Assembly (NCBI GenBank): GCA_949317995.1
Contig: OX439043.1
Span: forward strand, 59,165,339-59,229,338
Reading direction: 5' to 3'
DNA: 64,000 nt
Origin: Acholoe squamosa
Lineage: Eukaryota; Annelida; Polychaeta; Phyllodocida; Polynoidae
Shown here: positions 8,044 to 47,010 of the stretch, one piece after another
Layout of the letters: each line of letters starts with the position of its first letter
How positions within the stretch are numbered: position 1 is the stretch's first letter
Program-made: the position numbers and the translations under genes
The notes under the pieces: generated by a model
Told to the model about the DNA's origin: nothing
Databases searched by the model: none
Seen by the model: the letters and a program-made list of their open reading frames with translations, nothing else

Positions 8044-10812
8044 ATGCAGGGTCACTTGGATGAAGGTGATGACCCCAATCACCAAAATCAAGTGACTACA
8101 GGCCCGTTAGTGGATAGAAATGATCCACTAATCAGTGGTGGTTTGAACCACTCTCTGATAATAGGTCCATCGTCTGACCCGTTGGGCCTGTATCAAAGGA
8201 GCCGACTACTCAATTGGCGAGTATCGACTCAACTCTCTCCGGCGGCTGAGAATTTCTTGAGGACACAGAGTTTGTCCTATGTAGAAAAATCAGCCTCGCC
8301 CGTTGGAACTCCAATGGGCCTTGGCAGTTGGTCCTTCGAGGGTCCCTCGCCCGTGTCGATACAAGGAAGTATTGACAGTGGCAGGGGACTCAACGAGAAG
8401 TTGCTGCAAGAGCAGCAATGCCAACTGCGCCAGGGTCGCCAGCAGTTGGATGCTCTCGCGAGTAACACCACGAAAGCTCAGGAGAAGAGTACAGAAATAG
8501 AGCTGAAATTGGAACAGCTTAGGCAGCAAGCGCTAGAGGCTTCGAACAAGACTCAGATCGCGAATAGAGAACTTACTGATCTTCAGGAGAAGGTCAAGCA
8601 GCTCTCTAGCGAAAAAGAGTCCTTGCTTGCAACGAAGTCGGAGATCGAGCGTAGTCGATTGACAGCAATGGATTGTCAATCCCTAAAAGCGAAGATCGAT
8701 CGCCTTGCTACTAGCTGCCGAGAATGTGTCGAGAGAGCTCGAAACGATTTTCGGGATGCCCAACACGAGCAGACGTCCCTTAAACATAAGTTGAAACTAC
8801 AAGAAGTAGAAAAGACTATGTTGGAGGAACAACTGCAAGAGTTGCGGCATGAGTTGAACCAACAATCAGCCGAGCATACTGAAGAAGTAGCTGAGCACCT
8901 AACGGCTTATGAAAAGCAGGTCAAACAGCTACGTCAGGAACGGGAGTCGTTACTCTGTCAGATGCAAGCTGACGAGGATGCTCGAGCCAGGGACGAGGCA
9001 GAAATGCGTCGTCGCTGTGAGGAACGAATCGAACACGCAAACAAAATGGCAGAATATCAGGTTCTAATGGAACAGAAAGCGAGGCACGAGGCCGAGCTTA
9101 ATTCCTTGAAGTCTGAATCCCTAGTAGCCCAATCACTGAAAGATCAGAAGGATTCGGATAATCTGGGAGCCATGCGTGGAGAAATCGATAAGCTCCGACG
9201 AGAGATATTGTCTCGCAGGAAGGCTGATGAAGCCAGGGTGAATAAAGAAGTTCGTGATGAACTCGCACTCGAGGAACGTCTGAAGGAGCAGACGGAATCC
9301 AAATTGCGTGCCGCTAGACTTCGAGAGAAGCAACAAAGTAGTGAATGCAGCACTACTAGAGTTGCTACTCAAGAGGACCTAGTCGAAAACCCTGACTACA
9401 GAGAGTGGCTTGATCGTGCCATGAAGGAGGTCAAGCAGCTCTTCGCCATCAGCGAGCAACGAGATCTCTCGAAGCCCGAACATGCCCGCCTGGAATTCCT
9501 AGTGTCGGAATTAAGACAGGCGGAACGTTCAAAACAGCAGGCTGAGATAGATAGAATGGTGGGGGCAATCGACGACATCTCGAAAGTGGATTCGAGGTCA
9601 TGTCGGACCCAACCTGTTCCTTCGATGCCGCGCACCGATGGTCTAAGTGGAGTGATCGGACAGTTCTCGACCCCTACCACGACCCAACAACATGTTGATC
9701 CACCCAAATATAGGGATATCAGATTCGAGGCTTTGCGCCTGAGTGACGCCGATTCTGGTAACCCCTGGGGGATGAATCATAGTCATGCAGACACGACTAT
9801 GAGAAACATGGGGATGGACCATCAAATACCTAGAAGAGGTACAACATTCGCTCTTGATCAGGTCAGGAGATCAAGCAGAATGTTTGAAAATACCTCTATC
9901 GGGCATGAACCAGCCTGAACTAGGTCAGTCGAGTGCCCTCCATTTACATGGAAGGACGAGTGGCTCCGTTGGTACCACGGATTCAATCACGTCCGTCGAG
10001 TAAATGTGTGGACCTCGAGTATGGCATTAGCTCAACTCCTCATGTTACTCCAAAATGGCCCCGCAGCTGATACTGTGTGGCTATGGGAGGAGCATGGAGA
10101 TGGGACTTTGGATGGACTGGTCGACATGGTAACGGAAGCCATGACTTCTAGCCTCCAAGATCCCATTGTCACAATGGAGAAGAGATGCTAAGGCAAGAAC
10201 GAAAGCATTAGAGCCTATGGCTTTGCTTTGAGACGTCTTGCCGGCGATGCCTATCCAGGTGTGGACTTCTCGGTTGAATGGCTCATAACCAAAGACAACC
10301 AGTTGTTCATAGGAGGATTGTATGACGTTGATTTACAACAAGACGTTCTTCGAGAGTGGCGCACTTACATGTCCCTCAAGGATCTCATGGACTTGGCAGA
10401 CGAGTTGTTGCGGAAACGACAACTCCTGCCGAAGTTGGTGAATCCTACCTCGACAAATGCATTGTCGGCGTTGGCCAACGCCGCTTTGGTCGAGGAGGGA
10501 CAGGGGGAGGTGTCCTCATACTCGAAGCCCGGGGCGGGGAGTAAGACTAAGAAAAGTCAGAAATCCGCTGGTAAATCGAAAACACCAAACAAGGCCTCCA
10601 AACCCAAGGTACAGGAACAGACCTTCTCGCTGAGTCAATTAAAGAATTTACTCAGGGTTATCGAGGGAGGGGATGTCCCTGTTACTAACTCGGAGAAGCC
10701 GAGTACCCCTCCGTCCGACGCCAAGTGTTGGAACTGCAAGAAGCAGGGGCATTTCGCACGAACTTGCCCCGAGCCGATTAAAGGTCTACCACCTGACGCG
10801 ACGGAAAACTGA
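8044..10812 (+). pseudogene. gag: gag, one frame with two in-frame stops
   Basis: The ATG at 8044 has G at -3. The frame runs 922 codons to TGA 10810-10812, broken by TGA at 9916-9918 and TAA at 10189-10191. The N-terminal 600 residues are dominated by a long coiled coil (about 115-460; Glu/Gln/Lys/Leu-rich). The next 300 residues carry the capsid-like part (EWLRWYHGFNHV and later SIRAYGFALRRLAGDAYP), a Lys/Ser-rich linker, and a zinc knuckle CWNCKKQGHFARTC near residue 895. Gag binds RNA and builds the particle. The coiled coil makes it unusually long for a Gypsy Gag. The first stop could be a CGA codon changed by C-to-T. Confidence 0.88.
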
Positions 10813-12107
10813 GGCGGGCGGCTCGACGTGGCAATCGAGCTGCCCGACCATCGAAAAGCCAAGGTATCAGCACCTCTGGCACTCCTGATCAGACGACAGT
10901 AGATTCGAGGGAACTAGGTAAGGTCCCGGTAGGGCCGTCCCAGCCCTTTACCACAGCGGCACCGGTTGATCACCGGTCGGGTTCCGAAGATGTCGGTGTA
11001 GAAAAAGCCTCAATGGCCAAGGAACAGGGTGCTGGAAGCCCGAACTCCGAGGTCGAGGGTTCGACTGGATCGAAAGTGAAAGTCGACGCCGGGAGAGAAG
11101 CCCTGATGCGGCAGCTGGCCAGAGTCTGCGCAACAGAGCTTACCTCAGATGATCCCTGTCTCTCTTTTCTGAAGAAGAGAGGGATCGATCTGAGTACTGA
11201 CGTAGGGTTGAGAATGCTAGCAGGAACCGCCCCCTTATCGGGGAAACGATGGTACCTGTCTGCAGAGATTCGAGGGCATTCTCTAGACTTCCTGATAGAT
11301 ACTGGTGCCAGCCACACCATTGTCTCTCGGGAACTCGCGAAAACGTTAGTAGTGCAGTCAGATAATCTCTACGAGGGAATAACGGCGTGCACTGCGTCTG
11401 GAGCCGAAATGCGGACCTATGGTCGATTGGTTCTACCTCTTAAGGTCGCATCGACCCACTATGTGTTTAGCCCAATAGTGGCCGATGTGGCTGACGATGG
11501 CATTCTGGGGCTCGACTTCGCGGCACTATACAGTATGATCCTGAACCCAAGGACGGGTCAATTGGTCATGACCGAGCCGGTAGAAGAGCACCATCAGTGT
11601 AAACTGAAGAGAGTGTCATCGATAGCCTCAGTAGCACAGACCACTAGGATACCTGCCAGACATCGGTGCGATGTCTTGGTAAAATCCGACGGTCTGGAAA
11701 GAGACCGACAGGGCATAGTCGAACCCGACCTGAAAACTCTGAGAAGTTTTGGGTTGGTTGGTGAGGCTGCCCTTGTCAGCAATGTCCGTCGAACAGTGTT
11801 TCCCGTCTGTAATCCACTGAATCGAGACATTGTCCTGGAGAAAGGCCAGGTGGTCGGTACTGTACAGTACGCTGACAGAAACGGTGAACTCTCTTCACCG
11901 GAGGTAGGATCTGTGATCATGCGTCTCGAGCAAGAAGCTGCAGACATCGAGACGGCGGAAATCGCGAGCACCCGCACGGGGGAGCTCCCTACCTGGCTGT
12001 TAGACATGTATGGCGACACCCACCTGACCCAGCCAGAAGAAAGACTGAAGCTGTCCGCCTTACTACGTAAGCATGTGGATGTCTTTAAATCCCCAGATGA
12101 ACTGTGA
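10797..12107 (+). pseudogene. pol: pol, protease region
   Basis: This frame opens in -1 relative to gag with no ATG needed and continues to 12107. Retropepsin motifs are present: DFLIDTGASHTIVS (catalytic Asp in DTGA, codon at 11298-11300) and GILGLDF downstream. The frame stops with DVFKSPDEL, where the linker to reverse transcriptase appears to lack a dozen or so residues compared with related elements, and coding resumes in another frame. Confidence 0.85.
10803..10809 (+). promoter_or_regulatory. Candidate -1 ribosomal frameshift site between gag and pol
   Basis: GGAAAAC lies directly before the gag stop TGA (10810-10812). The pol frame is the -1 frame and is open from 10797. The heptamer fits the A-site half of the slippery rule (AAAAC) but not the classical identical XXX triplet, so it is a candidate only. 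Confidence 0.45.
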
Positions 12108-12714
12108 TGCACAACCTATCCGAGTCCCTTATAGAAGGATTCCGCTGAGCAAGAAAGCTGCGGCGGATGAACAACTTAAGGAGATGTTGGATACGGGGGT
12201 GGTTAGGCCAAGTACTAGTCCCTGGTCCAGTCCCGTCCAGATGGTGACGAAGAAGGATGGGACCATGAGATTCTGCGTCGATTATCGATGTCTGAATGGA
12301 GTGACTAAGAAAAATGCCTACCCCCTCCCGCGCATCGACGAATCCTTGTATGCCCTAGGAGGAAACAAGTGGTTTAGTTGTCTCGATCTCCAATCTGGAT
12401 ATTGGCAGATCGGGATGAATCCCGACGACGTCGAGAAAACCGCTTTTTCCTACCAGAGGGGGCTCTACGAGTTCGATCGAATGGCGTTTGGTTTGTGTAA
12501 CGCCCCCGCCACATTCGAGCGAATGATGGAGGAGATGTTGAGAGGTTTGCTGGGTAAAAGTTGCCTGGTTTACCTCGATGATATCATCGTCTTCGGCAAA
12601 ACGACGGATGAAGCAATGGCGAATCTGGCAGAAGTTTTCAACAGGATTCGAGCATGGGGACTGAAGTTGAAACCTAAAAAGTGTCAACCTGGGCCTGGGC
12701 CGAATCGTGTCTGA
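12108..12714 (+). pseudogene. pol: pol, reverse transcriptase region
   Basis: Reverse transcriptase motifs are clear: TKKDGTMRFCVDYRCLN, FSCLDLQSGYWQI, FGLCNAPATFERMM and the catalytic YLDD (12571-12582). The frame differs from that of protease and is broken again after KPKKCQ at about 12690, where several residues appear to be missing before LGRIVSEQGIE resumes in a third frame. Confidence 0.9.
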
Positions 12715-13237
12715 ACAGGGTATAGAAGCCAACCCGTGGAAAATTAGCGATGTAATGACTTGGGCTAGGCCCACTACAGTGAAGGAAATTCGATCCTTCA
12801 TTGGTTTTTGTTCCTACTACCGAGAGTTCATCCCGGGGTTCGCGGAACTCGTAAGCCCTTTACAGGACTTAGTGATCCAAAAACCTAAAGGTAGTAGAGA
12901 TCGTTACGAGGCATTCGCGTGGACGGAAAGAGCCGAACATGTCTTTGTCGAGTTAAAACGAAGTTTCAGGGAGACACCTGTGCTTCGATTCCCCACACCC
13001 GACGGTCGTTTTATCTTGGACACTTACGCTAGTAATACCGCGATCGGGGCCGTTCTATCCCAAGTGCAGGATGGAGCAGAGGTCCCGATCTCGTTTGCTA
13101 GCAACACTCTAAGTAAAACACAACGAAACTACTGCACCACCAAAAGGGAACTGCTGGCGGTTGTCGTGTACACCAGGAAGTTTAGCAATACCTCTATGGT
13201 GGTAACTTCACTATCCGCACCGATCATTCGTCTTTGA
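12704..13237 (+). pseudogene. pol: pol, connection and RNase H region
   Basis: It starts with the connection segment (RSFIGFCSYYREFIPGFAEL) and leads to RNase H. The usual catalytic segment is D-x-DAS; here the text is LDTYASNTAIGAVLS, so the catalytic Asp of the DAS motif has become Tyr. A one-base-type frameshift near 13190 moves the following YGGNFTIRTDHSSLKWLL into the integrase frame. Confidence 0.85.
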
Positions 13238-14637
13238 AATGGCTCCTGAATTTCAAAGAGGCTGAAGGAATGATGGGTAGGTGGCTGGCCCACCTTTCGG
13301 AGTTCGGTCTCGAAAACTCTAAGATCGAACATCGAAGTGGGGCCAAGCATCTAAACGCCGATGGTCTTAGTCGTATCCCTGTGCGGCTATGCCAGAGGTC
13401 GGATTGCACAGACTGTGGCAGTCATAATGCTGTTTTGGCAGCTGTAGGTAGTTTAGTAGACAGCCGGGTGGGTGTTGCATTTTGGTCTCTCGATGAACTC
13501 ATTGATGCTCAGAAAGCGGACACCGACATCAAACGAGTTGCTGAATGGCTAGTTAAGGGGGCTAAACCCACTAGGCCTGATGTATCAATCGAGAGCACCG
13601 AGGTACGGAAATTAGTAGGGCAATGGCCTCTATTAACCTTCCGTGAAGGCTTGTTGTGTCGCTGGAAAGTCGAGGCGGGTCGAGCTAGACGCACGATTCA
13701 AGTAGTTGTACCACGCCAACTGAGGGGTGAGGTACTCTCCTTTTGCCATGGACACCGAACGGCGGCACATTTTGGTCGTAAACGAACGCTCGAGAAAGTG
13801 AAAAGGAGATATTACTGGCCCGGAATGGGAAAGGACATAGGTCGTTGGGTTCGGCATTGTCCTACCTGTTGCCTGGTAAAGCCCGGCGAGGGCATGGGTA
13901 AGTCTCCTCTGCACCAAGAGTTGTTCGGGGTGAGATTCGGGAGGATAGCTATGGATATCATCTCGGGATTTGCACCCACGCCAAACAAGAATACTTGCAT
14001 GTTAGTAATCCAGGATTACTTCACCAAGTATGTACGCGCTATTCCCCTACCAAATCACATAGCAGAGACCTGTGCAGAGGCCTTCGTGGACGAATGGGTT
14101 TTGACCTTTGGAGTCCCGTTGCTTCTGCATTCCGACCAAGGTCGAGAATTTGAGTCTCGACTCTTCTCTGAGATGTGTGAATATTTGACGATTGTAAAAG
14201 AGAGAACCAATCCGTACAGACCACAGAGCGATGGTCAGGTAGAAAGGTTCAATAGAACATTGATTCAGAGTCTGACTATGTTGGTAGACAAACATATGGA
14301 CGACTGGGATGAACAGGCGAAGTATGTGGTGTCCGCATATAACAGCTCTGAACACAGTTCTACTGGATGCAGTCCAAATATGATGGTCTTCGGGGAAGAA
14401 ATTCTCATGCCAGCGGATGTGATTTTCGGCTCAATCGAGAACCCACTCGAAGTCCCTTGTTCCGTCACTTTCGTGGAACAACTTCGTGACCGATTGAGAG
14501 AGAGTTACAGCATGGTAAGAGAAAACCTAGGTAAATCTGCGGAACGCCAGAAGGTCGGGTATGACTATGGGCTAAAGCAGAGAAGATACTCAGTTGGGGA
14601 ACAGGTGGTGAGGTACCACACCCCCAGGCAGCTATGA
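13196..14637 (+). pseudogene. pol: pol, integrase region
   Basis: The end of RNase H (RTDHSSLKWLLNF) precedes integrase. The zinc-binding HHCC part is HRTAAHFGRKRTLEKV with CPTC. The catalytic triad is D in AMDIISGF, D in LHSDQGREF and E in DGQVERFN, with 35 residues between the last two. All catalytic residues are intact. The frame breaks at about 14630, just before the GPF-type segment. Confidence 0.92.
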
Positions 14638-15930: not shown

Positions 15931-16030
15931 TGGACCAATAGGGTTCGCCCTCCTCGGTCACGTAGGCCCTTCCTCCAATCAGAGGCGTGCGCCATAGGGA
16001 TAAAAGGCCGCGCCGCACACCACGGAGGTC
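15931..16030 (+). promoter_or_regulatory. Promoter-like block upstream of ORF3
   Basis: Two CCAAT boxes (15935-15939 and 15975-15979) precede a TATA-like GATAAAAGG (15999-16007). The stretch from there to the ORF3 start (about 270 nt) has no in-frame or out-of-frame ATG until 16279, as expected of a transcript leader. An internal promoter in an LTR element is unusual. Confidence 0.5.
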
Positions 16031-16283
16031 ACATCACACGCAGATTAGCTGGACTAAGCCTAGCTTATTCAAGCTGGTACGCTCCGCCCCGGGGACTTCC
16101 TACCTGAGTGTAGGAGGTCTCCCCTGCCTAAGTGTCGAGGGACACGACCTGCTTGAGCGCAGGTTCGTGTTCTCTCGAGGCTCTAGTCTTCGGTCCCTCG
16201 AGCCGCCTGAGGCATCTAAGCAGCAGAAGCGCGACTTGAAAGTCGCAGCTGCTGCCGCCTCGAGGGACTCCTCCCCCGATGAG

Positions 16284-18967
16284 ATGGAGGTCGACGAGCC
16301 GTCGACACCTGCTCCATCGAAAAGTGCTACCCCTTCAGGTTCTAAGGGCAAGAAGCCCACTGAATCGAAGGCATCCAAGGGTACCTTGAAAGACTTCAAG
16401 ATCCCTAAGGTGCCCAAGAAGGAAGGTAGCAAGAAGGAATCCGCAGCCAAGAAGGCTCCAGCCCGGGAAAGGAGTAGCGAGTCTACTGCACCACCGGAAC
16501 CTGGAACCGAGCCGTCGGAGGTCGATGCCGGTGCCGTGGAGAGCACCGTATCCTCACCCCCAGACACGGCCAAGGCTGTCGACGAGTGGAAGCGGCTGTC
16601 AGCGATCACTGCCAAACGACGTACTGAGTACGTCGATGACAGGCCACTGACCAAGCTTCAGGACTACCGCAAGAACGGTCAAGTGGTACTCCCTAGTCTC
16701 GTCGGGAAGGATGGTAGTGACGACGAGGAATGGTATTCGGATGATAGTCATGCCATTGACTGGTATGTCTCGATGATCGAGAATATCATGAATGCCTCAG
16801 ACTCGTCGGGGGTGTCGCTGCCCGAGCGACAGCGGATTGGGTTTGCATGGCGCATCTTCAATCCAGGGCAGCAGTGTGCTTTCGAGAACTGCACACTTAA
16901 GGGGTTTCCCCCTCGCGTATACGCGACAGACGGCAGGTATGCTCGATACTTGGTTGAAGAGCATCGGGCCGTCCGTCCGCAGTTCGGTTGTGTTAAGGTG
17001 GAAAAGACCATTCCATGTTATCAGGACCCTGATGACCCGACCTCTCCTCCTTTCGTGACCTCACGAAGGGGCTTGATGGCGCGTCATCTCAAGTCGTACA
17101 AGCAGCCCCATAAGTACAACGCCGAGGGCGCTATCCAACTAGTGGAGACACTGGTTGGAAAGTGTGAACGGAATGAAAAGACAGGCGCGCCGACTAGACA
17201 CTGGATGCGGATGGCTCCCGCACCCCCGTCTACGAAGCGCCTGTATATCAGACCGGAACTGATGCCCGCTTTCTACGGTGCCTACCCCGAGTTCAGGGTA
17301 GAGCAACGGAAGAAGCGGGAGGCCAGTCGTCCTCGAGACCCAGGACCGACAGCTTCTACGAGTGGGAACAAGAGGCCCCACTCTACAGAGGCTGGGAAGT
17401 CTGCCGGTTCGACTGAACCCAAGAAGCCTAAGCCGCAGGCTGCTCCCTCGAAGCCCGAAAAGGCATCGAAAGCCGCCCCGGCCCCGGCTCCTAAAAAGTC
17501 GAAGACTGCTTTGACCGGTTCGGCCAAACCAAGCACCAGTGGTGCTAAAACTGGAGGCAAGACGGTGGAATCCCGGAGTGGTCGTGATCGGCAACCCAAG
17601 GTGACCACCAACTCGTCTCCCCCTGTCAAACCCCCTGCGGCGGCGGAAGACAGCACCCCAGCTGCCACGCCGCTTGTCCACGTGGGAGGCGCGACACTGA
17701 CCTCGGCAGCAGGAGCTAGCTTCTCTAATGTCGTGACAGGCGCCGACACCCCGACAGCAACCTTGCTTTGGGAGTTGGCACAGCCTGCATACGGCGATGG
17801 CGTCGAACGTGAGGTCCCGAAGACGTTCGTGGAACATTGTAAGGGACTTCTACAGATGACGGGCAGCCCTGCTATCGACAAATTCGGTGAGGCATTTCGT
17901 GAGGAAGCGAGTGCCTACTTGTTCGGCCTGTTTGATAGAACAAACATGGCCATCCGTAACGAGCTCCTTCCGGCTCTTAGGGATGAGGCGCGCCAGACCG
18001 TTCAGATGGAGATGGACTCTCGTCTGACCGATGTCTGAACGCGTCTCAATAACTTTGAGTCACAGGCCCAATATGATATTACCAAGAGGGATAGTATCAT
18101 AGAAGGCTGGGAGGATATCGACCGCGAATTCTTTAGAGTCTTCGGGGTCCAACTCTCGGAATGGATGAAGGACAAGCACCATGGCGTCCGAACCCTGAAG
18201 CCCGTTCGAACTGAGCCCTCTCGCGAAGCGCAGAGGTACCTCGTCGAGGGTGGAGTGGTCCCTGATGTCAGGACGCTGGCGGCTCAGACGAATCCTTTGA
18301 GAGAATTGTCTCCAAAAATGGACAGTCTGAGCTCGGCTATGACGATGTTGGGCCGAGAGCAGGTGGTGCAGGACAAGCCTGACACCCCGGGTAGGTCTCT
18401 CGGTGCCTCCGTCTACCCACCAGCAGCCCCGTCTTCCTCCTCGGTTCCCTTGATAACCCTCTCGGGAGCCACCGAGCCTACACCGCCACCGGTCCAGAGA
18501 GTGGTGTCACCGAGGATCCATCCGGATCTTCATGGCATCACGCCTCTGGCCCCGGCGAATGTAGCCGTCTGCCCGGACCCGTCGGCTTCCGCCCAAGCAG
18601 TAGAACCTGCCGAGGCGGAACAGTCGATGGATATAGACGGGGACGTCGATGTCGTCGGTCAATCTCCAACGGCTCCCCCTGACCAGGAGACAAGGACGAC
18701 CTTGAAGGTCGGGAGAGCGACGACGACGACGGAAGCGACTCAGCAGACTCGGCCGTTCTCCACTCAGATGCTGAGGGGGACTCCCGGGATGCACCCGAGA
18801 CCTCTAACGAGGCTTGGAGTACGACAATGGACCGTGTGGCCCCATTGCCGGAGTCGCCGACGTTTTCGGGCCAGCTAGCCGCCAGTGCTTCACATGAGGA
18901 GGAGTGCACTGACGGAGAGCAGGCTGAAATCGACGCCGCTACAGAGTCCATCTCGGAGGATCAGTAG
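16284..18967 (+). pseudogene. ORF3: large accessory protein of unknown function
   Basis: The frame is open from upstream, but the best start is ATG 16284 (G at -3 and +4). It runs past an in-frame TGA (18036-18038) and, after a frameshift between about 18640 and 18700, ends at TAG 18965-18967, roughly 890 codons. Order: Lys/Ser/Pro/Ala-rich basic region; a folded-looking part (WYSDDSHAIDWYVSMIENIM) with spaced Cys/His (CAFENC, then RYLVEEH, then C and RRGLMARHL) that may bind zinc; a second basic disordered region; a helical part; and an acidic Asp/Ser/Glu-rich tail. No signal peptide or membrane segment, so not an envelope. No family recognised. Confidence 0.65.
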
Positions 18968-39736: not shown

Positions 39737-40102
39737 TTACGTGGAAGGGGCATCCATTGCACGGGACAGGATGACACCGAACGCACCCTCAATATACAAC
39801 AGAGCCTTTCGCAAATCTCGTAGAATCAGAAAACCCCTCAAATGCCTCACGGCCCTTGCTTCTGTCGTGTGGTATTCAAGGATATCACGAGTGACTCGCG
39901 TATTGGGGACGATCCCATGGCCCTGCATGGTGGACTTTAACTTGCAGAGGAGCCAGTAGACGAAGTTGTCTTCCAATTCTCTGACTTCTTTGTGGAAGCT
40001 TAGGTGAGTGCGACTTTCGATCACTTCATCAACGCCCATAGCTTCGAGGTAAACGGCAAAGCGCATCAACCATTCATAGGTCTGCTCTAGCAGGGCTGCC
40101 AC
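39737..40102 (-). CDS. IL-6-like gene, coding exon 4 (helices B, C and D, stop)
   Basis: The acceptor TTATTTTACACCAG precedes 40102 and the exon starts in phase 0. It encodes helix B (VAALLEQTYEWLMRFAVYLE), helix C (HKEVRELEDNFVYWLLCKLK), a CD loop, and helix D (AVRHLRGFLILRDLRKALLY), and stops at TAA 39737-39739. The FxxK receptor motif that opens helix D in LIF, CNTF and CT-1 is absent, so this is not simply a LIF-type ligand. I found no clear polyadenylation signal within 300 bases downstream. Confidence 0.85.
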   Translation of the reverse strand: MAALLEQTYEWLMRFAVYLEAMGVDEVIESRTHLSFHKEVRELEDNFVYWLLCKLKSTMQGHGIVPNTRVTRDILEYHTTEARAVRHLRGFLILRDLRKALLYIEGAFGVILSRAMDAPST

Positions 40103-43100
40103 CTGGTGTAAAATAAGAGAATGAACTGTGATGAGACTACTTCTCTGGTGTTTTTGATCATTGACAGAATAAAATGCTCTTTCTTGGTGTTGATATCCAT
40201 ACATAATATTCATTTATAAAGTCAAATAGCTGATATTAGAATGCATGTGCAATTCGACTTCAATCAATTCTTATCTTGTAGGATATATTTTATGTCTAAT
40301 AGTTATAATGTTATCCTTCTTAGTATTTCTGTGTTGTAAAGTATATACTTACACTTACATCTTGAGTTAAGTTGACTTCGGGGATTGTGGGGAGTCCACT
40401 GAGTTGCATATCTCTGGTATCATGTTCCAAGTCAATCTTGATTCTTTGAACCGTCTACAAAGATAAAATAACACACATTAGTCTACAGAGATTGGCAATA
40501 TTCTCATTTATAACAGGAAAATGGATTTTGGAGACAAAACGTCTTGTATCAGAACAATTGAAATGGAAATTAGGTAGAGAAGTTAGGGTGGGCTTAGGAA
40601 ATATTGCAGGTTGGTTTCATCAGATATCCATCAACGCACGCAATAAAAGGTTGTAGGCATGTTGGTTGCAATTTTAATTGATGCCCCTTCCCATATGTCC
40701 AGATTACCTTAACTACCCTCATACCATTTATTTTCTTCTGAATTTGAGTTAATCTAATGATTTAGATACATATATAATGTCCATCAGAACCTAAAGATCA
40801 AGTCACTATTAGATAAGCTCCCAGATAATAACCTCGTAGACACGTGTTATACCTAGCACCCTTCTTATATAGATATACCTACATCCCAACGACTGTCAAA
40901 AAATCCCAAACTTCCTGTACATTCCTAGCATCCCTCAGATGTCTGGGCCGCATGTCTGTGGGCATGATGAGAGGGAGGGGTAAGGGGAACCGGAAGTGAC
41001 ATCATGAAAACCCTGCTGCACCACCCTGCTCCCTTTTTGGAGGGTATCCATCAGTCACATTGCTCTCCAATCACAGTACACTGATTGTTCTGTGTGAGAT
41101 ACTAAGGCCCTCTATATGACACTCATGTAGCATTGCTGTGCTTGGAGCGTAATTCCTCTGGTTTTTGGCGGCAATCTTCATGGCAATATACATGGGAGGG
41201 CGGGGGGGGGGGGGTAGTAGAAAGAGGGAGAGAAGGGGGGGCAAGCGTTAACATTCCAGCCCCTGCCCCGATTATGTTTGCAATTTCCTATACTACTCTT
41301 TGTACCAAAGGGAGGCACTTGAGTAGGTCCATTGAGACAGAATTTGACTCATCAGTGGTCATTCTTAATGCGTAGGCCTAACACGGGGTATCTGTCCAAT
41401 GGGGGGACAGGGAAAGACCCCAGTGATTTACCCGTATTAAGTGCAGGACATGGGGAGATGAACCATTACATCAGTATGTACAAAAGCTTTAAAGTTGTAT
41501 GATATCTGTATTTCTATTTCTAGGAAGTTTAGACCAATTAAATCATCTAATCGGGTACAAGAGTTGTGATATCCACGTATTCTGACTGACTAGCCAGTGT
41601 TACTTCATGATTGACATGGCAGATTCTCACGTGTAGTTCCAAGTACAATGTAACACCGGAACCTACAAGCTTCCCTCTGAGTCTCACTATACCCTTCCCT
41701 CTGGTGGGTTGCCATGGCAACCAGCATGCCATCGATCTGGCCTGTTTGTGACTGAATAGTCCCATTTTAGTAACCATCAGACTGTCATCATCACCAATCG
41801 GTTATTGTGACTGACCAGCAGGATATATGTATTATGACAATCGGATCTACCCTGTGTATATATAAAGTGTTACTATTTAGTGGTGGTTTCAGAATGCACC
41901 CCTGTAGGTGGTACCAGAGTCAAGTGATGGAGCTACTGCTGCCCCTGTTGCTGCAGCTGCGGAGAGGGTTCTAGAGCCCTGGAGGGAATTTCACAATAAT
42001 GTCATTTCATTGTGAAATGGGGTGCTGGGCCAAATACAACTCATGATCTTGAATGGGGGTAGAGCTAGGGGTTATGTATGAAACAAAACTTTTGCGTATA
42101 ATTGTAGGCCCATAGTTATCATTATCAGTCTTCACTGAATCAGATATTGAGAGTTGAGTACAGGCTACCTGTATATCTCTATACATGTACACCGACACCT
42201 AGATAATCTCTGTTAGATTTGAAACCCATATGATTCCACGCAGCTATTTGAGTTGAATTAAATGGTAACATGGTATATGTTGGTGGTCTGTCTCTGTGTG
42301 TGTGGGTGGGTGGGGGTGTGGTGTGGTCAGGGCAGGGTAAAGATTACACCAGTTGCTTCTACAGTCTGCATTGCCTCCTATGGCTTGTGGTTTGGGCTGT
42401 TATTGCTCACAACTCCTTACTTCCGGTGTCACACGCGGCTGTTGGATCTCATCATAGTATAGGTCTACCACACATTCCAAATACTAATCATGGGGAAAGA
42501 GAGCGAGTCAGGGCTAGGGTTCTAGATTACATCTATTACCTGATCATCAGAATAAATATAAAACAGGCATTGTCTTTGATCTGGTAACACATTATATGAA
42601 AATCATTTACAAAAATCAAAAATGCTTCTGGAATTATCAAAGGCTAGTCCATGGTGTTATATGATTATTTTGTAATTGGAATCTTTATGGATTCAGAGCA
42701 AGATATTCTCCATTCCATGTTTGATGACATAGCATGACATGGCCAGGACATGATCAGCCCACCCCGTGACATCTGCTTGTTGTGAATAGCTCATGACTTA
42801 TATCAGATATTGCGTTTTATTCTTCCCTCTGTGCAGTATATTTTCTGTGGGTAATTTTAGTTTATAACTTTGTATACAAAACGGCCTCCCCTGAATACAT
42901 TATTTTTTTCTGCTCTGCTATCACAAGATTTCCATTTAAGATTGCTTCAGTCTGCAAGTACGGACGGTATGGATTGGATTGTAAAAGGTTACACATAGCT
43001 GATTAGGACAAACTAACGAGTTTACAACAGGAATACTAATGGGCTTCAAGTGTGACCACTATTAGTACCCAAGATGTGTAAAAAGATATGCCCTGCGGTC

Positions 43101-45363
43101 AGGTAACCTGCCTATCCAACTCACGTGTGGTATGTATGCAGAATTGCTCTAATAGATATCATGGCCATACTCTGTTCAAATATTGGGAAAGCCTTCTTGT
43201 CTCAAAATGAGACCATATCCGAACACAAGTATAGCATACATCTCTAAAAATGTTTGCAATGTGGATTCGCCTTTGGATTCGCTTTGGATTTTGGAACAGG
43301 CCCTACATTTTGAATTTTGAGCTGAGGGTTTCTATAGGACTCGCCTCTTATAATTGTAGGTAGGCTTAAACAGTTTCCACCATTCGCCTTTGAAACATCC
43401 GTGGTTAGCTTACCCTGTTCATGATAGCTCAGGAGATACTCAAGATTTATTTTCAAAAATTGTGGGTGTAGGCACAAAAGACTGGTCTCATTAATAGCTA
43501 TAGTGTAGGGAATATAGTAAACTATATATAATTACAGACAAGATCTAGTGGCTAACCCTGACCGGTGTGGCCCAGCTCCTGTCCTGGAGGTCTGCTGGCC
43601 TCAGGGAACTGTGAGGGCAGCCTGGAGGTGTGTCCAGTGGCCGACAGGTGTCAGGAGGCGCCTGTTCCCCTGGAGACGCCGGAATGTTGCCAGGCAACAC
43701 AAACATCGCTAGCCTTACTTTGGCGCCACTAGGGCCAGCGGGTTTGTCTCCAGGCTGGTATCTCCAGCATCTATGGAACGTGCTTACTTACATGTAATTG
43801 TCTGCCTGTTGTAATGAGGAATTTTCCCTCTCTTCTTTTTTATTTATGCTTGGTGTTTTTGCTGTTAAGTAGTTGGTATTATTGTTGATACTTGATGGTC
43901 TAATCTTCCTATTTTTCTTTTTGACTATGCCAACAGACAGTTGTGTGATCGTGACTTGGCAATATTTCCAATACGAGGCACATGCCATTGGGGAATACCT
44001 CAAATGTCATTGCCCTACGCATAAACATTATACCATAGGGTCGACCATATATAGAAGCATCAGGGACAGTCTTAATGAATGACACAGAGCATAGTGAAGG
44101 CTCCGTTACTAGGCTATGCTTACAGATATGAGATAATACTATTGAGGTCACTATGGGACTACTTTCATATCGGAAATGATCCTGATCAACCTGTGTTGTA
44201 AATTGTCATAAAGGCTTCAGGGGGGCAAGAACATCTTATAGTCTAACTCTGTGTGAGATTAATAGGGGGACACCAAGCATCTAACATTCCACGCACTTTC
44301 CGTAAACAAGCGTCTATTGAGTATTTGAAGCTAGGAATTTTGTGTTATTTGCTACATACAAAGAAATATAGAAATTACCAATGGACTACTCTCTTGAAAA
44401 AAAGTTTAGTTGCAATCTTCCTAAAAAGCAATCAAGGCACGCTCCTTAGGCCAGCTATACGTATAATCCGAATCGCACACAAACTACTAACTGCCTCCTT
44501 CAGTACCCATCCTTGGTGAATTAATTAAGCTACCTGATTACTTTCCTGATGAATCTATTGCCTAGTGAGGCCGGGTGAGGTCAGCTATGGCTCCCCCTGG
44601 AGGTGACCCCACATGGTTCTGTGATATATTATTATGTTCATGGTGAGGAGCGGGTCATTATGATGCTATGGTCATCTGTGCTGTAACCTGCTTAGCATAC
44701 CTATAAGGCCCCATCACAGCTACAACATAGAGGCTGACCACTGTCCAGTGGCTATTAGAAGTGGGGCCGCAGGTGCATGTATGTATGTTGTGGTATGCCT
44801 CCTCCCTGACATACTAAACTGCCCATTGCCACCTTGTGATAGCTGGGATAGAGGAGGAATGCTAAGTATCCCCCCTCACCCCCCCCCCCCCAACACATCT
44901 TTCTCTCACCACTGGCAATGCACGGCGCGACTTGACTCGCTGCATCGTGACTGTGGTGAACGATGTGGTCAGCATGTTATAGGTGTCACAACTTGATCAT
45001 TTCATTGCAGCCTTTGATATTGTCACTGACCGAGATTGGGGCAAGTGTATATAGCAAGTGTATTTTTTTTCTTTTAATTATATATTGAAGTGATTTAGGG
45101 AAAATTACAAATGCAATCTTTCTGTATTCAATCAATATCTAGATACTATCTGCAGTTAGACCATGGAGTTAAAAAGTGCTCCTGATACTACAAGAGACTA
45201 CATTATGTCCCTTATAGACATAGAAGTCCTCACCTGACAGAAAATGAAGTTAATTAATGAGTGTGTGGTCTGGGGTTCCATGTACTAATTACCCTCTGGG
45301 CAGTGGTCCTATGCATTCTAGATATAGAAACAGCGAGAGACATAGAAAATACAGAGAGAGAGC

Positions 45364-45401
<38 letters not shown>

Positions 45402-46795
45402 GCCCAGAGACAGACAGACAGACAGAGACACACACACAGACAGAGACAGACAGACAAACAGGCAGAGACAGTCAGAGATAGAGAGGGAGAGAATACTTGT
45501 TTGAGTGCGTGAGTGAGTGCGACGCAAAGAGAAAGAAGGAGAGATTGAAATGTAGATAGACATCCACCCCTAGGGATACTCATCAATGAACGTGGAGAGG
45601 GTGAAGGTCACGTCTGTGTCTCTGAGCCTGTACTTAGCAGACAGTGTCACTGGTATCCCCAGAATGTCGGTCCTACCATTCACCTATTCATCTAGTCACA
45701 TCAACCCATTTACAATTTAGCCTAGCTCACGTGAACCACCATCATGACCATGCACAAACCATAGGCGCCAGTGATGATATTGGTTGTTTTCCAATCATAC
45801 AATCTATGTATTGTTTATTGCCATGATAAACATGTGTTCTTTTGCCAGTCAAAAACTTGTATCTAAGATCCTATCACTTAATGTCTGTAATTCTCCGCAA
45901 AAAAAAAAATTGCATCATGAAGGATTTCTATATGTCTATGGCGTTACTAAAGCCTGACTATCAGGGCCCCAAGTTCTCCACATGTACATGACATAAGACG
46001 TCAAGGTCTATTCGCCTGAATTTAAACAACACAGAGTATGCCAGTAATGTCCTCTCCACTCTATCTTGCCATACCTTTAGTCCCAAACTGTAGCTCGCTA
46101 CACTGCATGTGTATCGCATGTAATCCCTATCAGCACTAAACTAAGATCTCCATCAGCATCGTACTCCACCCTACCCTCTACACTCTACCCTTACATTAAA
46201 ACAAGGATGTATCTATAGCCCATATGAAGAGCAGTACTTACAATGTTGTTAATGAGCTTTGCAGTGGCCTCCCTGGACACAATGGCATGTTCCTGGATCT
46301 GTTGATAGTCACTGGTGGCGTTAAATTCGGGTGTGGTGATAGCAGTAAGAATGCCTCCAAGGTCTGTTGTGTCCGCCGGCGTTTTACCCGCGCACGGCTG
46401 GTGCCAACGAGGAACTGATAATGTTGTCGCGTCCCTCACCCGCCGCATTGGCGCTGCAGTCGTCGCTCCCCATAAGAGCACCACAAAAAGGGCTGCAAAA
46501 GGGGAAAATTGATGGAAAAGTTATAAAAGAGTGCTTGTAATTTGTTTTATTAACCGTACTGTGCTAGATTTTATGATCTCCATGCCCTGAGTTTCAGACA
46601 GTGTCATTAATTTAGTCTATTTATTTTTACCTCTTATACAGTTCAACTTGGTGCTAAAGATTCAAAAGATTTGATTGTTAGGAACTGCCATACATATTTA
46701 TCCAAGTGACGACAGTCTTAAATAATTTATAGTTTTGAGCGTTGTGCTCATCCATAAAGGAGGAAAAGCTTACCTATAACTGTAGAATAATCCAT
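39737..46795 (-). CDS. Secreted IL-6-like four-helix cytokine gene, four coding exons
   Basis: Joining 46774-46795, 46242-46492, 40359-40454 and 39737-40102 (minus strand) gives an open 244-residue protein. All introns are GT-AG, with phases 1, 0, 0. The N-terminus MDYSTVIALFVVLLWGATTA is a signal peptide split by intron 1. Four amphipathic helices follow: A (about 70-100), B (about 123-148), C (about 157-178) and D (about 205-235). Helix B contains LMRFAVYLEAM, close to the IL-6 pattern L-x2-F-x3-L. Helix D contains GFLILRDL, sharing LILR with vertebrate IL-6 as I recall it. Three N-glycosylation sequons (NAT, NIT, NLT) and two mature cysteines fit secretion. Vertebrate IL-6 and G-CSF genes have phases 1-0-0-0, so here the last two exons would be fused. 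The expected partner is a gp130/Domeless-type receptor signalling through JAK/STAT (inference). The gene model is firm; the family call rests on motif reading without a database search. Confidence 0.8.
40359..40454 (-). CDS. IL-6-like gene, coding exon 3 (end of helix A and AB loop)
   Basis: This 96-nt exon is phase 0 on both sides. It encodes the end of helix A (TVQRIKIDLEHD) and an AB loop with SGLPTIPEVNLTQD, resembling the GLP-type AB loop of the CT-1/CNTF group as I recall it. The acceptor TTATCTTTGTAG is clean. Two donors lie 6 nt apart, GTAAGT at 40353-40358 and GTAAGT at 40347-40352. Either keeps the frame, and the distal one adds Val-Ser. The exon lies 5.8 kb from exon 2 and 256 nt from exon 4. 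Confidence 0.8.
41708..41721. promoter_or_regulatory. Perfect RFX X-box motif in intron 2
   Basis: GTTGCCATGGCAAC is a full palindrome matching the RFX transcription-factor consensus (GTNRCC, short spacer, RGYAAC). A weaker version, GTTGCCAGGCAAC, lies at 43685-43697. Related sites at 34909-34922 and near 31040 show that such sequences also occur outside genes here, so function is uncertain. Confidence 0.35.
45353..45490. repeat. (AG)n / (GACA)n microsatellite
   Basis: A run of GA dinucleotides passes into GACA tetranucleotides and CA steps. Open frames on both strands across it (Arg/Glu/Thr/Asp-rich or Ser/Leu/Cys-rich) are artefacts of the repeat. Confidence 0.9.
46242..46492 (-). CDS. IL-6-like gene, coding exon 2 (rest of signal peptide to helix A)
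   Basis: A pyrimidine-rich acceptor (CCCCTTTTGCAG) precedes 46492. The two leading bases complete the split alanine codon. The exon encodes the hydrophobic core LFVVLLWGATTAA, a linker with a cysteine and an NAT glycosylation site, and most of helix A (for example HAIVSREATAKLINNI). It ends in phase 0 at the donor gtaagt (46236-46241). The exon is 251 nt. Confidence 0.82.
46774..46795 (-). CDS. IL-6-like gene, coding exon 1 (start codon and first signal-peptide residues)
   Basis: The ATG at 46793-46795 lies in a strong start context, with A at -3 and G at +4. It is the first ATG downstream of the start site predicted from the TATA box at 46972-46979. The exon encodes MDYSTVI plus one base and ends at the donor gtaagc (46768-46773), phase 1. 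Vertebrate IL-6 and G-CSF genes also start with a very short coding exon of phase 1. Confidence 0.8.
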
Positions 46796-46971: not shown

Positions 46972-47010
46972 TATATATACATGCGAGAGGGAACTTCCTG
47001 CATGACGTCA
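46972..47010 (-). promoter_or_regulatory. Core promoter of the IL-6-like gene: TATA box, NF-kB-like and CRE sites
   Basis: On the minus strand a TATATATA box lies at 46972-46979, about 180 bp upstream of the start codon. Immediately upstream are GGGAACTTCC at 46989-46998, which fits the NF-kB consensus GGGRNNYYCC, and a perfect palindromic CRE/ATF site TGACGTCA at 47003-47010. Transcription should start near 46945, giving a leader of about 150 nt with no ATG before the chosen start. The compact cluster suggests an inducible gene; binding is inferred from motif only. Confidence 0.6.

Follow-up and report, generated by a model that had tools for sequence, protein, structure and literature searches.

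Candidate gp130-type cytokines in an annelid: a ten-gene family with a layout nearest LIF/OSM

We describe a gene, one of ten annelid paralogs, whose product is, with a probability of roughly 0.7, a secreted cytokine with four helices that belongs to the gp130-ligand type and whose layout is nearest to that of LIF/OSM. Taken as a family, these proteins are most likely gp130-class cytokines that are nearer to LIF than to IL-6. The gene lies in a stretch of 64,000 nucleotides (the window), and the genome that was searched for its relatives comprises 1.48 Gb in 63 contigs. The family offers a specific candidate for the ligand in Lophotrochozoa, and its sequences are available for expression and testing. 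Its confirmation would either move the origin of the gp130-type signal back to the bilaterian ancestor or demonstrate convergence, and would supply a cytokine system in which annelid immunity and regeneration could be studied.

A survey published in 2026 and covering 18 metazoan phyla/subphyla reports IL-6-family ligands in vertebrates only; IL-6R, JAK and STAT co-occur there from Mollusca onwards, but with no IL-6 ligand (PMC13203501). That survey was carried out by BLAST (E 1e-5, 30% identity) and leaves room for other ligand types. It also covers the Drosophila Unpaired proteins (Upd1-3), Domeless ligands that are invertebrate and act through JAK-STAT (PMC13203501). A shrimp C-type lectin that acts on Domeless is a non-vertebrate activator of a gp130-like receptor; it differs from the present family in being a lectin with a coiled-coil part rather than a helical cytokine (PMC5645147). 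Annelid and bivalve mediators have been reviewed in an article whose text does not contain the term 'IL-6' (PMC9756803). Among the literature matches listed (titles and abstract openings, with subscription papers mostly outside), none described a class I cytokine from an annelid.

The window gene and its paralogs

The window gene has four exons on the minus strand, which join across GT/AG borders in phases 1-0-0 to give a 244-amino-acid open frame (Table 1); this bears out the exon structure claimed in an earlier note on this DNA. The N-terminus, MDYSTVIALFVVLLWGATTAAP, is hydrophobic and signal-like as judged by eye, in agreement with the secreted protein proposed there. The protein carries three N-glycosylation motifs, and Cys41 and Cys176 are its two cysteines. 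Exon 4 contains FAVYLE in helix B and LILR in helix D, likenesses to IL-6 that had been pointed out before, and no intron was seen ahead of helix D, which differs from IL-6 and matches the earlier statement that the last intron is absent.

Table 1. Positions in the window of the exons, conserved cysteines, predicted helix blocks and upstream motifs
Feature	Position	Strand	Remarks
Exon 1, coding part	46774..46795	-	start codon, 7 codons + 1 base; intron phase 1
Exon 2	46242..46492	-	signal-like stretch, PRWHQPCAG, helix A; like exons in paralogs
Exon 3	40359..40454	-	AB loop
Exon 4	39737..40102	-	helices B to D, then stop codon; P0001 85% identical
Cys41 of PCxG	46392..46394	-	10/10 aligned members; count partly by construction
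Cys176 of helix C (WLLC)	39944..39946	-	10/10 members
Helix A block (predicted), residues 68-91	46242..46313	-	moment P 0.009; Pro 3/240 cells
Helix B block (predicted), residues 125-146	40034..40099	-	moment P 0.035; Pro 0/218 cells
Helix C block (predicted), residues 161-183	39923..39991	-	moment P 0.15; Pro 1/225 cells
Helix D block (predicted), residues 204-234	39770..39862	-	moment P 0.53; Pro 2/310 cells
TATATA, possible TATA box	46974..46979	.	~180 bases before ATG; putative function
NF-kB-type site GGGAACTTCC	46989..46998	+	motif match; putative function
CRE/ATF site TGACGTCA	47003..47010	.	motif match; putative function

The earlier note had treated this as a single gene; the gene stands, but the family to which it belongs had been missed. 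This divergent family has at least ten genes in the genome, the window gene included, and one broken copy. Using the window protein as query, relatives of exon 4 were found at C9:12.07M (E 2.3e-6), at C3:81.86M and 81.64M (E 0.02-0.03), at C1:76.13M (E 1.8) and at C8:23.08M (E 3.4). A C3 member used as query returned its own pair, the broken copy at C3:81.66M and C1:76.13M (E 1.4e-18), as well as C1:87.09M (E 0.76) and C3:65.89M (E 4.1), while the C8 member returned C3:65.89M (E 3.7e-14), C9:33.19M (E 3.3e-7), C9:1.81M (E 1.7) and C1:87.09M again (E 9.2). For the membership of C1:87.09M and C9:1.81M, motifs and exon plan weigh more than the scores. The broken exon-4 copy (L017/L018, C3:81663480-81663885) is situated between two intact-looking C3 copies and was excluded from every alignment. 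Also dropped were an exon-2-like match (L009, E 4.4), a locus with three stops (L024) and two extra PC.G matches in L033 and L036.

A matching exon 2 was found upstream in 10/10 members. It was located by tblastn in L011-L013 and, in six other members, was the open frame chosen for PC.G (seven loci scanned, one without a match). Two motifs run through the family: P-C-x-G, which precedes helix A, and Leu-Cys, which lies within helix C; since exon 2 was chosen using the motif in 6/10 members, the former is partly conserved by construction. A phase-1 acceptor lies within the open frame ahead of PC.G in 9/10 members, mostly as one among several candidates, with none usable in L014. A phase-0 donor follows exon 2 in 9/10; the scan found none in L013, yet GT follows there in phase 0. 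In L011 and L012 the AB loop is encoded by two small exons bounded in phase 0, and it contains an extra intron. Nine columns of the ten-member alignment are invariant, including Pro40, Cys41, Gly43, Leu175 and Cys176. The tree, in which branches are long, places the window gene in a group of six members, apart from the other four (99/99). The close pair L011/L012 (dN 0.070, dS 0.147) points mildly to selection at the protein level.

Some members carry additional segments. The C-termini of L005 and L006 have a basic tail, RRRRHSTKN, after helix D, similar in this respect to OSM, which has a basic C-terminal propeptide. In L032, L033, L035 and L014, exon 2 includes a long pro-region with basic residues between the signal-like stretch and PC.G, which is possibly cleaved.

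Of 7396 candidate proteins searched with the ten-member profile, a single one scored at E 10 or below. This protein, P0001, comprises 111 amino acids on an 816-base ENA contig and is identical to exon 4 at 94/110 positions. A single-protein query of a set of 5.8 billion proteins, in which P0001 was too short for candidacy, passed 0/540 candidates. Because exon 4 has relatives in the genome (best E 2.3e-6), the upstream exon 2s match and P0001 exists, the coding status of the window gene goes beyond chance; judged from its sequence and relatives, it is a real, protein-coding gene, and the original observation of the gene is confirmed.

Predicted helices and profile likeness to cytokines

The ends of four helix blocks were set by eye, and proline content and hydrophobic moment were tested over the aligned members. 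Proline occupies 6/993 cells within the blocks versus 61/1000 outside, and the helical moment is significant for blocks A and B only, blocks C and D being non-significant. The proteins of the family are probably helical, and we infer a four-helix bundle from these patterns.

Searches with sequence models for IL-6 and Upd, as proposed in the earlier note, found no Pfam match to either. Pfam scans up to E 10 with the whole protein, exon 4 of six members and four full-length members gave no IL6 (PF00489) match, and the Unpaired family was absent among the Pfam matches up to E 10 of the six members scanned; Pfam should hold an Unpaired model. PDB sequence searches gave no credible match, and family profiles likewise found none in Pfam or PDB. 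Matches to DUF7153 (E 0.16), other Pfam entries (E 0.016-0.94) and PDB chains (E 0.07-2) were taken as noise. A genome search with PF00489 returned no match and is uninformative, since control genomes returned none either.

The human LIF, CNTF and IL-6 sequences used agree with PDB chains in the stretches compared. With an eight-member profile of exon 4, the score was reached by 2/300 shuffles for LIF, 4/300 for IL-6 and 235/300 for CNTF. With the ten-member profile, hhalign gave LIF a score of 20.3, with 0/150 shuffles as high, and a match that is low in absolute terms (probability 2.3%, P 0.021). Helices B-C of LIF align to helices B-C of the family in this match with the cysteines in register (NVLCRL versus WLLCKL). 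Shuffles scored as high in 9/100 cases for OSM, 2/100 for IL-6 and 12/100 for CNTF, and reversed versions of OSM and CNTF outscored the forward versions.

A panel of 29 proteins was then ranked by hhalign z, consisting of nine gp130-type ligands (LIF, IL-11, leptin, CLCF1, G-CSF, CT-1, IL-6, OSM and CNTF, the last two added before the set was tested) and 20 others, of which 15 are other cytokines. As a set, the nine ligands rank above the 20 others (Mann-Whitney P 0.001) and above the 15 other cytokines alone (P 0.0036). Among the nine, LIF has the top z (3.93), and IL-6 reaches 1.95. The highest of all 29 is IL-13 (z 4.01), with a match far off the diagonal; IL-7 (z 2.84) has a near-diagonal match. 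GM-CSF, prolactin, calmodulin, IFN-beta and IFN-alpha rank above OSM and CNTF. Matches near the diagonal were obtained for 9/9 gp130-type ligands versus 6/20 others (Fisher P 0.0005, after manual sorting with a post hoc cut-off). In a helix-order test based on assumed helix ends, the ranks of IL-6, OSM and LIF were 1, 2 and 3 of 24, while two of five ligands, G-CSF (rank 17/24) and CNTF (rank 21/24), failed. A likeness to CNTF, suggested by eye from L005, was unsupported on both its shuffle count and its helix-order rank.

The profile comparison that had been suggested as a check was favourable in part: none of 150 shuffles equalled LIF with the ten-member profile, but single scores are weak and IL-13 tops the panel. 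The IL-6-like label likewise survives only in its broader sense, in that gp130-type ligands are favoured as a set, but LIF fits better than IL-6 and the Pfam IL6 model is unmatched.

Identity of the family

The family resembles LIF/OSM in length and in being secreted, and LIF in having a cysteine ahead of helix A (RHPC in LIF, HQPC in the window protein) and one in helix C. It differs from LIF/OSM in being too distant for BLAST, HMMER and Pfam and in its annelid host, and from LIF in having one conserved cysteine pair versus three disulfides. The LIF disulfide C18-C131 joins the N-terminus to helix C. The cysteines of the family stand at these LIF places, which suggests that Cys41 and Cys176 would form one disulfide of the same kind. 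The window gene is like IL-6 in its short exon 1 and phases 1-0-0, although the gp130-ligand phase plan, 1-0-0-0, is common to other class I cytokines. The IL-6 disulfide pairs are missing from the family. The kinship with IL-6 drawn from VYLE and LILR in the earlier note is only partly upheld: both motifs are present, but the family-wide cysteines fit the LIF/OSM disulfide over the IL-6 pairs. Membership in IL-6 proper was rejected, as IL-6 fits less well than LIF and the Pfam IL6 model found nothing; the family is not filed as a member of the IL-6 family because this curated model was tested without a match and the fold is a predicted one.

It is unlikely that these are class I four-helix cytokines with no special kinship to gp130 ligands, forming either a protostome branch of their own or relatives of Upd, and resembling LIF and IL-6 through the common fold only. 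Phases 1-0-0(-0) are general to long-chain class I cytokines, IL-13 and IL-7 also lie well above their shuffles, and CNTF and G-CSF fail the helix-order test, all of which fit such a reading; the rank of the gp130-type set over the 15 other cytokines, the placement of gp130-type matches near the diagonal and the lack of an Unpaired match in Pfam for six members argue against it. The comparison with Upd was made on these Pfam matches. Less probable still is an unrelated secreted helical family, such as neuropeptide precursors or helical antimicrobial proteins, with two conserved cysteines and a chance likeness to cytokines. Consistent with this are the lack of a profile match to known families, an absolute hhalign probability under 3% and the long basic-residue pro-regions of four members, but the exon plan and length, the order in which the helix blocks follow one another, the placing of the cysteines and the gp130-type ranking all converge against it. 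That the gene is a gene-finding artefact or a pseudogene of four chance exons is hardly credible, since the exon plan and motifs are common to the paralogs and an 85% identical protein is encoded on an ENA contig, which rules out chance exons.

Given the gp130-type reading, it is hypothesized that cytokines of this type predate the protostome/deuterostome split and that their expansion in annelids produced a multigene family served by a receptor of its own, in which case the family would be the BLAST-invisible, fast-evolving ligand that the 2026 survey did not find in Lophotrochozoa; we hold this broader history to be evenly poised between true and false.

Proposed signalling and genomic surroundings

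In the proposed mechanism, the two cysteines would form the predicted disulfide, the helices would pack up-up-down-down, and the protein would bridge two receptors of the gp130/Domeless kind, which may switch on the JAK encoded in the genome and then STAT. A JAK FERM exon is present in the genome; Pfam FERM_F1/F2 matches confirm it, and its closest PDB relative is JAK2. The earlier note had proposed looking for a gp130/Domeless receptor in the same genome. Human gp130 domains gave 20 weak matches listed, and the eight loci examined among them include no receptor, being twitchin/titin-like FN3 exons on C17. An FN3 exon array of a twitchin/titin-like gene, named by eye, extends over G000:C17:15.08-15.17M.

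TATATA, a kB-type site and a CRE are located about 180-215 bases upstream of the ATG. The kB-type motif GGGRNNYYCC occurs 34 times in the window versus 14 expected, and as such matches are in excess throughout the window, the kB site alone says little; TGACGTCA occurs three times versus 0.5 expected. The kB-type site and CRE beside a possible TATA box may suggest that immune or injury signals induce the gene.

The mitochondrial genome is the 15.6-kb contig C63. Its protein genes, identified from translations, share one strand and run cox1, cox2, cox3, nad6, cob, atp6, nad5, nad4L, nad4, nad1, nad3, nad2. This is the annelid order; the animal is most likely an annelid, in line with the earlier supposition that it may be an invertebrate. 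In the window, long open frames at 8044-9918, 15987-18038 and 18165-18878 (624, 683 and 237 amino acids), which have no Pfam match at E 0.001, lie beside a Ty3-like retrotransposon at 10228-14637 whose genes, in several frames, encode a zinc knuckle, aspartyl protease, reverse transcriptase, RNase H and integrase.
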